Positions 38,501-39,530 of a DNA stretch of 64,000 nucleotides are shown here, piece by piece; positions within the stretch are counted from its first letter, which is position 1, and every line of letters starts with the position of its first letter. The position numbers and the translations under genes are program-made. This stretch comes from Bolinopsis microptera. Taxonomy: Eukaryota; Ctenophora; Tentaculata; Lobata; Bolinopsidae. Under the pieces are notes generated by a model. It was not told the origin of the DNA and ran no database searches. It was given only the letters and a program-made list of their open reading frames with translations. The DNA lies in contig NC_087082.1 in the NCBI RefSeq assembly GCF_026151205.1, forward strand, positions 11,886,997-11,950,996. Direction: 5' to 3'.

Positions 38501-39530
38501 TGAGTCATGCAACTTGTAGGGATAGTAATTCTGTGTTTTTACACGGGTCATGTCAACAACTTAGAGTGGTAACCTTGCCAACAAAACTCATGTTGACGTT
38601 TTACAATTAACTTCTAATTTCGGACAGACTTCTACTAGTCTATACTCTATAAGCACTCACTTCTTATCTCGTGTCACAGATAGTAAAGGTAACTACTGCC
38701 CAAAGCTGCAAACATCTAAGAGGAAACGGAGGATAGGCAGCAAGGACCTGCATGCCAAACTCCATACGGACGACCCTCAGTTTATAGACTTTTTAAAGAA
38801 ATGTCTGGAATGGGATCCCGCAGTGAGGTGGACCCCTGATGAGGCTCTCAGACACCCGTGGTTAAAACCTATAGTCCCTCGCACGTTACAGACTATTTCT
38901 CCAAACACTTCAGAATCCTTACCCGCTGTCACACCTTCACAGATTGTCAAGAAAAAAGGTAGGTTCATTGTCGCTGTGTTTATATTACTTTTACTCTGTC
39001 CTTCTATGGACTGTAACTCTACTATAGACTGTAGTATAGACTCTAACTGTATATGTAAATTTTCGTGCAAGACTAAATACAACGTCCATTTCACTTCACA
39101 CATCTCACACATCACCTCTCACTCTCCAGTAAATGAAGCCACATACGTGCTAACATCCCTCCTTCTCCACTCACCCATGGTGCTCTTCGAACCTCCTCCA
39201 CCCTCTCCACCCACCCTCCAACCCACCTACCCTCGCTTCTCCGACCAACCACCACCTCAACCCACTCGCTCACACACCGCGCAACCTTCTGAAGATAACG
39301 AACAACGCGGTAATAATGACGTCATCAAGTCTGGGTTGATGACGTCAGCAAATGGTGATGTCATGAGTCCAGGTAGGAGCACTGCACCTCCGGGGAGCAG
39401 TAAGGAGTACAGAGAGTTTGTTTCTACCAGGAACTCCGAGATTGAGCGGTGTAATAGTTTGAAGTATAAGATGCAGAAAGAGAGCCAGGAGGTCAAGACT
39501 AAGGCTAAGGAGAATTGCGCGGTCATGTAG
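20513..39530 (+). CDS. Class II DYRK (DYRK2/3/4-like) dual-specificity kinase, 13 coding exons
   Basis: DYRKs autophosphorylate the activation-loop Tyr and phosphorylate Ser/Thr on substrates. Coding exons: 20513-20862, 31999-32106 (cassette), 33871-33956, 34211-34342, 36216-36316, 36518-36640, 36917-37042, 37270-37368, 37656-37759, 37976-38071, 38336-38451, 38680-38958, 39130-39530. All phases agree and the total is 2121 nt (706 aa plus stop; 670 aa without the cassette). Seen: a Ser/Pro-rich N-terminus ([13 protein letters not shown]), the DYRK homology box ([20 protein letters not shown]), the Gly loop IGKGSFGQV (~251-259), VAIK Lys ~275, catalytic HCDFKPEN (Asp ~372; most DYRKs have Leu where this has Phe), DFG ~392 and the YTY activation motif ~404-406. 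The C-terminal lobe ends LRHPWLKP, then a proline-rich tail and CAVM. An AATAAA lies at 39813. The DH box and length place it in class II. Confidence 0.9.
21067..21474 (-). CDS. Hypothetical ORF, 135 codons
   Basis: An ATG-initiated open frame antisense within DYRK intron 1. There is no recognisable domain, no signal peptide and only moderate hydrophobicity. The length is somewhat greater than expected by chance at this base composition, which is the only support. Confidence 0.15.
   Translation of the reverse strand: MHYQKMIGLEYRATLRESTKQQESRHIFTRSNTPSLPLGVMTHDRTTNNCNRLVDIDRGGACYKNSKSRESCSAFYSACYIVMGINGYIAETMSTYFVLMEVELTRWDRTVAFDLPYIAKTTYIQSKIMQFHVSL
22084..22563 (+). CDS. Hypothetical hydrophobic ORF, 159 codons
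   Basis: An ATG start with an acceptable context (AGCCAATG) opens a 159-codon frame ending TAA. The first 35 residues are strongly hydrophobic ([20 protein letters not shown]) and could form a signal anchor; the rest is mixed and ends basic ([10 protein letters not shown]). By rough estimate a frame this long is uncommon by chance in a 64-kb AT-rich window, but no family is recognisable. It lies in DYRK intron 1 on the same strand. Confidence 0.25.
   Translation: MFTILFAYSKSAIVISFLFFILCLDYIFSTLIFCSACTTNLSQSIIVVQVCLDRFVVSVVENKKSLQISALLEIILDQLFSARLVSMTMLEEYIRAQFVYLVCHGITYTIYILGNYNGMKCTCLVKNVQTRFKRRTWYKDKSIYVLSRTMCQLSGSAWQ
22657..22920. repeat. 23-bp polypyrimidine minisatellite, ~11 copies
   Basis: The unit is TCCTTTAGTCGTCATCTCTTC plus TC, with TTTAG/TTTAA/TTTGG variants. 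It is followed (22930-22980) by three copies of a 13-bp relative, TCTTCTCGTCATC. The plus strand is almost purine-free throughout. Confidence 0.9.
23280..24450. promoter_or_regulatory. GC-rich island with E-boxes, CRE half-site, RFX X-box and CCAAT
   Basis: CACGTG occurs at 23291, 23577, 23970, 24107, 24130 and 24345. ATTGG occurs near 24155 and 24184. TGACGTC (24223-24229) abuts the palindromic RFX-type X-box GTTACCATGGCAAC (24230-24243). The patch is more GC- and CpG-rich than the surrounding intron. It looks like an intronic enhancer or alternative promoter. A 98-codon ORF across it (24152-24448) shows no motif and I do not call it a gene. Confidence 0.4.
26160..26260. promoter_or_regulatory. 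Paired ATTGG-CACGTG modules
   Basis: ATTGG (about 26183) then CACGTG (26200), followed by ATTGG (about 26224) then CACGTG (26242): the same two-element module twice in 65 bp. The 71-codon ORF over it is probably fortuitous. Confidence 0.35.
26705..26768. repeat. 32-bp tandem duplication
   Basis: Two copies of a CACTGTACCATGTGAAACAT-type unit continuing CACGAACCTGCA. It lies just downstream of CACGTG at 26674. Confidence 0.85.
27832..27923. repeat. ~45-50-bp tandem duplication
   Basis: Two copies starting CAGTACCCAT and containing AGCAACAACCATT and ATTACCTG; the second copy is slightly shorter. Confidence 0.8.
28135..29393. repeat. 55-bp minisatellite, ~23 copies
   Basis: Highly homogeneous array. 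Each unit runs CACCACCCTCCCAGCAGGAT, CTCCCTAGCTTGCTCACT, CAGGGAGGGTACTTAAA. It contains the inverted arms ACCCTCCC / GGGAGGGT, so each unit can form a hairpin, and one strand carries regularly spaced GGGAGGG. A few copies lack one C (54 bp) or carry single substitutions. Confidence 0.97.
29574..29655. repeat. (GA)n microsatellite
   Basis: About 80 nt of GA repeats broken only by a few GACA or GTGA interruptions. Confidence 0.95.
30229..30635. repeat. 12-bp minisatellite, ~34 copies
   Basis: The unit is AACACTGTTAGT with AGC or ATC variants. Because the unit is a multiple of three and stop-free on the minus strand, it creates a 214-codon open frame of NSVT/NSVA tetrapeptides and an overlapping LLTV frame. 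I read these as by-products of the repeat, not as genes. Confidence 0.97.
31859..31978. repeat. AT-rich (TAATAAAT)-type low-complexity run
   Basis: Reiterated AATTTAATAAAT motifs immediately upstream of the acceptor of the DYRK cassette exon. Confidence 0.8.
31999..32106 (+). CDS. Cassette exon of the DYRK-like gene
   Basis: Acceptor TGTATTGCAG and consensus donor CAG|GTAAGA bound a 108-nt exon. Both ends are phase 2, exactly matching exon 1 (ends AG, phase 2) and the next exon (starts with one completing base), so it can be included or skipped without changing frame. It adds 36 Ser/Thr- and Lys-rich residues (including [11 protein letters not shown] and [11 protein letters not shown]) to the N-terminal regulatory region ahead of the DYRK homology box. 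Its last 29 bases plus the donor are tandemly repeated downstream. Confidence 0.65.
32078..32194 (+). repeat. 31-bp tandem repeat duplicating a splice donor, ~4 copies
   Basis: The unit AAGATAATATCTTCCAACTC continues AGTCGACAGGT. The first copy straddles the exon end; copies two and three recreate CAG|GTAAGA at about 32138 and 32169, and the fourth loses it. The AAGATA/TATCTT palindrome sits directly on each donor. Confidence 0.9.
34343..36215 (+). other. DYRK intron between DH-box exon and kinase exon
   Basis: 1.87 kb intron, the longest of the kinase-domain part. It contains an AT dinucleotide run near 34590-34640, CACGTG at 35005 and the 27-bp minisatellite at 35706. No further exon recognised. 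Confidence 0.7.
35706..35978. repeat. 27-bp minisatellite, ~9-10 copies
   Basis: The unit is TAACATCTTCTGCGGGTCTG continuing TTAACTG. Because 27 is a multiple of three, open frames of about 90 codons appear on both strands (AGLLTVTSS on plus, PQRMLQLTD on minus); I treat them as repeat artefacts. Confidence 0.93.
38959..39129 (+). other. 171-nt stop-free DYRK intron (possible retained intron)
   Basis: Donor GTAGGT at 38959 and acceptor CTCACTCTCCAG before 39130. The intron is 57 codons long, in frame with both flanking exons and free of stops. If retained it would insert a segment beginning [14 protein letters not shown], which is hydrophobic enough to be a membrane segment, followed by a Cys-rich stretch. 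Splicing is the default reading because both sites are good. Confidence 0.7.
39130..39530 (+). CDS. Terminal DYRK exon: proline-rich tail and CaaX-like end
   Basis: Last 133 residues of the kinase protein. There is a proline-rich stretch ([24 protein letters not shown]), a low-complexity Ser/Asn segment, then a charged and probably helical tail ([20 protein letters not shown]) rich in Lys, ending [11 protein letters not shown] and TAG. C-A-V-M matches a CaaX prenylation box (Met at X favours farnesyltransferase). No DYRK I know of ends this way. The frame joins exon 12 in phase. Confidence 0.8.

Follow-up and report, generated by a model that had tools for sequence, protein, structure and literature searches.

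The question raised by this locus is whether a ctenophore protein kinase of the DYRK family ends in a CaaX box and, if so, what a lipid attached there might do. In the window (the whole 64-kb stretch of DNA that was analyzed), a first-pass annotation had described a complete class II DYRK gene whose in-phase last exon closes with CAVM and a TAG stop codon, and had read the sequence before the cysteine as a Lys-rich stretch that would help to hold the kinase to membranes.

Structure of the DYRK gene

A gene model assembled by script from the window places 12 exons on the forward strand (32006–39530), whose product, a class II DYRK kinase, is 587 residues long. Each of the 11 introns has GT-AG ends and a fitting phase, and the start codon, ATG at 32006, was picked by eye. 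Exon 1 (32006–32106) encodes residues 1–34. Its donor (CAG/GTAAGA, at 32106) falls in a 31-bp tandem repeat with 3.8 copies (32078–32194), in which three identical donors are spaced by 31 nt; use of a later donor would shift the frame. Exon 3 (34211–34342, approximately residues 63–107) belongs to the DYRK2-aligning region that precedes the kinase domain. The kinase domain starts in exon 4 (36216–36316), with GKGSFGQ at residues 134–140, and ends in exon 11 (38680–38958). Within it, the catalytic residues are present: exon 5 (36518–36640) carries the lysine of VAIK (K156), exon 7 (37270–37368) the catalytic loop HCDFKP (from residue 251), and exon 8 (37656–37759) both the DFG motif (273) and the activation-loop YTY (285). 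Exons 2 (33871–33956), 6 (36917–37042), 9 (37976–38071) and 10 (38336–38451) are given as in the assembled model.

The last exon, exon 12 (39130–39530), encodes a proline-rich linker and a predicted C-terminal helix, and ends with TAG. The CaaX box Cys584-Ala-Val-Met and the stop codon occupy 39516–39530, and were seen both by direct reading and in the assembled 587-residue product, as the annotation had it. When a 401-base query over the end of this exon was run against the genome assembly (264.65 Mb, 232 contigs), a single place was found, which is its own locus. The genome is that of a ctenophore, probably Bolinopsis microptera. Among solved structures, its glutamate-receptor gene L018 has its best match in the Mnemiopsis receptor ML032222a, and a stretch of 119 residues from this receptor finds a place of 81% identity in the genome.

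Intron 11 (38959–39129, 171 nt) is in frame and free of stop codons, and its retention would add 57 residues including a hydrophobic run. It was considered as coding sequence and rejected: the frame is open (242/4000 shuffles are open as well), yet its codon score against introns is negative (-9.9 bits), with a GC content of 0.37. The composition-corrected score of intron 11 is 1.4 bits, a value reached by 35% of 273 windows, and speaks neither for nor against coding.

Identity of the kinase and its paralogues

Residues 57–429 of the product match the human DYRK2 structure chain 3k2l_A with 506 bits (E 7.7e-151), above DYRK3 (494 bits), DYRK1A (334), CLK3 (215) and HIPK3 (211); this bears out the earlier description of a class II DYRK gene. 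The kinase domain spans residues 127–423 (Pfam Pkinase, 186.9 bits). As the alignment to 3k2l_A begins at residue 57, upstream of this domain, a DYRK2-type pre-kinase stretch is present. Judged by its sequence, the window gene belongs to the class II DYRKs. It shares with human DYRK2, DYRK3 and DYRK4 the kinase domain with the stretch that precedes it and the activation-loop YTY; unlike these class II DYRKs it ends in CAVM, and it has diverged, scoring 506 bits to 3k2l_A against 734 bits for a paralogue in the same genome. Among the human proteins, we presume that it resembles DYRK4.

The paralogue (L002, on C8) is DYRK2-like, the part that matches 3k2l_A is one open frame, and its C-terminus, LPKIVG, has no CaaX box. 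In another DYRK-type gene (L044, on C10), which is spliced and by eye DYRK1-like, a late open frame (3104–3619) ends in the non-canonical CVKQ. A strict CaaX end is found only in the window gene among the three DYRK-type genes examined, the genome holding 69 kinase-sequence matches. A hunt for orthologues in the contig collection returned 43 pattern-matched stretches, of which nine encode a relative, at 23–36% identity and all in prokaryote records.

Use of the last exon

In 16 of 4000 dinucleotide shuffles, the 132-codon frame of the last exon stays open. Scored against introns with the codon model, this frame reaches +26.9 bits when its terminal stop is penalized, versus -30.5 and -65.3 bits in the other two frames. 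The in-frame score is positive in all four parts of the exon (12.3, 6.1, 8.5, and 6.0 bits), and seven of the eight off-frame scores over these parts are negative. Over the 400 bases after the stop codon the three frames score between -72 and -87, and the GC content falls from 0.44 in the 26 final codons to 0.31 past the stop. Downstream of the stop, AATAAA occurs at 39813 and 39903.

The codon model carries less weight as proof that the last 52 codons are coding once composition is corrected for: these codons then score 1.2 bits, and 33% of the 316 non-coding windows with an open frame do as well or better. For the last 26 codons the score is 2.1 bits, which 13.5% of 1110 windows attain, and 52-codon windows of exons 3–11 have a median of 3.8 bits (range -2.4 to 9.9). 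AlphaFold2 predicts a confident C-terminal helix over residues 545–586, with much of the linker at low confidence. The helix was rejected as support for the exon, because an antisense frame there yields a helix of equal confidence. Taking these results together, we consider it very probable that CAVM is the actual C-terminus of the protein.

The CaaX motif and the prenylation machinery

In the six frames of the window, the strict pattern C[AVIL][VIL][MSQA] closes one of the 608 stop-ended frames of at least 40 codons, namely the DYRK frame, and six of the 3982 such frames of at least 10 codons, the DYRK frame included. Any cysteine at the CaaX position is found in 18 of the 608. The resulting one-gene chance of approximately 0.15% overstates the surprise, because the motif was chosen after looking. 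The closest known motif considered here is CAIM of lamin B, from which CAVM differs at a2 alone (Ile to Val). Lamins are filament proteins, and it is the motif alone that lamin B and the window kinase have in common. CAIM is described as fully modified by human farnesyltransferase (FTase), with cleavage possible, in a study that counts 1207 human Swiss-Prot proteins with a cysteine at the CaaX position (PMC11152559). CAVM itself has no occurrence in the main text of that study or of PMC10320760, and the sole match for CAVM together with farnesyl in open-licence PMC text concerns brain arteriovenous malformations.

The genome holds genes for several of the enzymes that such an end would call upon. 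Matches to the prenyltransferase beta subunit number six, at three places. One of these (L014) is the FTase beta subunit, with 454 bits to human FNTB (1jcq_B) and with SRPWLCYW, VDGCYSFWQ and YHTCYCLSGLS identical between the two; we take these stretches to hold substrate- and zinc-binding residues. The other two places, L015 and L016, were read by eye as the beta subunits of Rab-GGTase and GGTase-I, respectively. Alpha-type prenyltransferase repeats gave six matches, five of them above the cut-off, at two places. The one hit to ICMT is partial, covering 56 of 95 positions and having a stop in its frame, which is what the edge of an exon would produce; one search of the genome for Rce1 returned no match, from which its absence does not follow. 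The PDE6-delta/UNC119 carrier family has five matches at two places.

Ras-family loci were examined for CaaX tails as well. Twelve loci were cut out of 151 matches, and nine of them hold a CaaX-ended frame after basic residues, with the ends CTIL, CVIL, CIIL, CNIL or CSIM, some of these frames being shared between neighboring loci; the remaining three end in SCFC, CGLV and LLNR. CaaX tails are therefore in use in this genome. One cluster (G000, C1:12427279–12459122) packs at least 21 Ras-family matches into approximately 32 kb, and the loci read there end in polybasic CIIL, CVIL, CNIL and CSIM.

CAVM is one residue away from a fully modified motif; the earlier view of it as a good FTase consensus holds, and prenyltransferase genes are present in the genome. 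We think it probable, arguing from sequence, that Cys584 of the class II DYRK is an FTase substrate and is farnesylated. For this, the last exon would be spliced and used as read and FTase would attach a farnesyl group to Cys584, after which AVM would be clipped and the cysteine methylated. GGTase-I may be an alternative enzyme for Cys584, because CxxM ends can be accepted by both FTase and GGTase-I.

Predicted membrane contact

The lead to the CaaX box is less basic than had been supposed. Before Cys584 the net charge comes to 0 across 12 residues and to +3 across 20, against +7, +4 and +7 over 12 residues in three CaaX GTPase tails from the same genome; on these counts, a polybasic-plus-prenyl anchor was rejected. 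An amphipathic membrane helix was also rejected: the hydrophobic moment of the tail is no better than that of shuffles, being matched by 1957, 1335, and 419 of 2000 shuffles at 11, 18, and 41 residues, respectively. Given a lead of weakly basic character and a tail helix that lacks amphipathicity, firm anchoring at the plasma membrane is not expected, and the membrane anchoring that the first-pass annotation derived from the motif does not follow.

High-affinity cargo of PDE6-delta is described as carrying Ser(-3) with Ile(-1), as in INPP5E, or Met(-1), as in GRK1, and low-affinity cargo as carrying Ser(-1)/Lys(-3), as in Rheb, or Gly(-1)/Lys(-3), as in T-gamma; the affinities given there are 445 nM for Rheb and 6,573 nM for T-gamma (PMC5512577). 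The DYRK tail has Asn at position -1 and Lys at position -3. It thus departs from the rule for high-affinity ciliary cargo (hydrophobic -1, Ser -3) and, as far as these two positions tell, resembles low-affinity PDE6-delta cargo; the farnesylated tail would be predicted to bind with an affinity like that of Rheb or T-gamma. Most likely, the farnesyl group provides a contact, with internal membranes or a partner protein, that is weak and exchangeable rather than a firm anchor; a PDE6-delta-type carrier would help such a contact. The fuller scenario, to which we assign somewhat less than an even chance, is that in a ctenophore lineage a class II DYRK became a farnesylated kinase. It would attach to internal membranes and leave them again by way of a PDE6-delta-type carrier, beside a second, DYRK2-like gene without a CaaX box.

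Alternative explanations

The protein may end as read, with CAVM a product of drift in a tail that changes fast and without any selected role, whether or not FTase modifies it. Much of the linker is of low confidence in the AlphaFold2 model, the paralogue L002 does without a CaaX box, and at six strict CaaX ends in 3982 frames several would be expected by chance across the genome, whose gene number we take to be over ten thousand as an order of magnitude. CAVM nevertheless belongs to a class that is modified well (aliphatic residues at a1 and a2, Met at X), and an accessible end of this type would probably be modified anyway. We regard drift as unlikely, at roughly one chance in four; as it overlaps with the preferred reading, a farnesylated Cys584, the likelihoods given to the readings do not add up to certainty. 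Less likely still is an error in the gene model, by which the transcript would leave the exon at 39372 or end elsewhere, so that CAVM would not be C-terminal. A donor-like CAG/GTAGGA after 39372 scores 7.9, which is within the range of 5.7–11.5 spanned by the 11 donors of the gene itself (these also supplied the donor matrix). Downstream acceptors lie at 40130 (9.7) and at 40199 and 39545 (7.1), compared with 7.6–13.7 for the gene's own, and the coding signal past 39372 is weak once composition is corrected for. Set against this, the frame stays open for 52 codons from 39372 on, as it does in 93 of 4000 shuffles, GC is higher before the stop codon than after it, and the acceptor at 40130 sits within a GPCR frame on the opposite strand.

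The farnesyl group might, by another account, serve ciliary delivery, with PDE6-delta handing the kinase to Arl3 as it does INPP5E or GRK1. Ctenophores are rich in cilia, which counts in its favor, as do the carrier-family matches at two places in the genome. GRK1, moreover, is described as a farnesylated kinase with high affinity for the carrier (PMC3307776; PMC5512577). The Asn(-1)/Lys(-3) of the DYRK tail is of the low-affinity kind, however, and we consider ciliary delivery very improbable.

Comparison with known kinases

The DYRK family is known for control by autophosphorylation and by partners. It had been stated with the original description of the tail that DYRKs are cytosolic or nuclear and that none was known to be prenylated. 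As to the second part, no prenylated DYRK was found among the matches listed in open-licence PMC text, by their titles and the starts of their abstracts; for ctenophore DYRKs, the matches listed there likewise showed nothing on the subject by title or abstract start. The first part overlooks Pom1, a kinase that to our knowledge has no lipid anchor. Pom1 of fission yeast is, like the window kinase, a member of the DYRK family, and is reported to associate with the plasma membrane (PMC4547846). It differs in that its membrane binding is switched by its own phosphorylation state, with attachment upon dephosphorylation and detachment upon autophosphorylation (PMC4547846).

If Cys584 is farnesylated, a lipid switch would have been added to the DYRK family in a single lineage of animals, giving it a second route to membranes beside that of Pom1. 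Farnesylation at the C-terminus has precedents in GRK1 and LKB1 (STK11); these, and GRK7, belong to kinase families other than DYRK. GRK1 and GRK7 are kinases with a C-terminal CaaX box, as is the window kinase, and GRK1 is described as farnesylated (PMC3307776), but GRK1 has Met(-1)/Ser(-3) and a high affinity for PDE6-delta (PMC5512577). LKB1 is also farnesylated at its C-terminus, in its case on a non-canonical CKQQ that is prenylated without cleavage (PMC10320760). Kinases with a prenylated C-terminus are few in the sources used here, namely GRK1, GRK7 and LKB1 (PMC3307776; PMC10320760). A membrane-associated DYRK and farnesylated kinases are each known, and their combination would be new. 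We know of no other lipid-anchored DYRK in an animal, and this one would be the first. The weight of the proposal is modest, as it is a motif prediction from a single gene.

Sequences flanking the gene

Upstream of the DYRK gene, the window contains a 55-bp satellite of 23 copies with 98% matches (28135–29394), and an array built of 33.8 copies of the 12-bp unit AACACTGTTAGT (30230–30635). Downstream and convergent to it, a fragment of a class A GPCR lies on the reverse strand (39924–40733; 7tm_1, 40.4 bits, profile positions 78–260). This fragment adjoins a reverse-transcriptase region, with a frame on the forward strand (41302–43359; RVT_1, 133 bits) that is by appearance of the non-LTR type.
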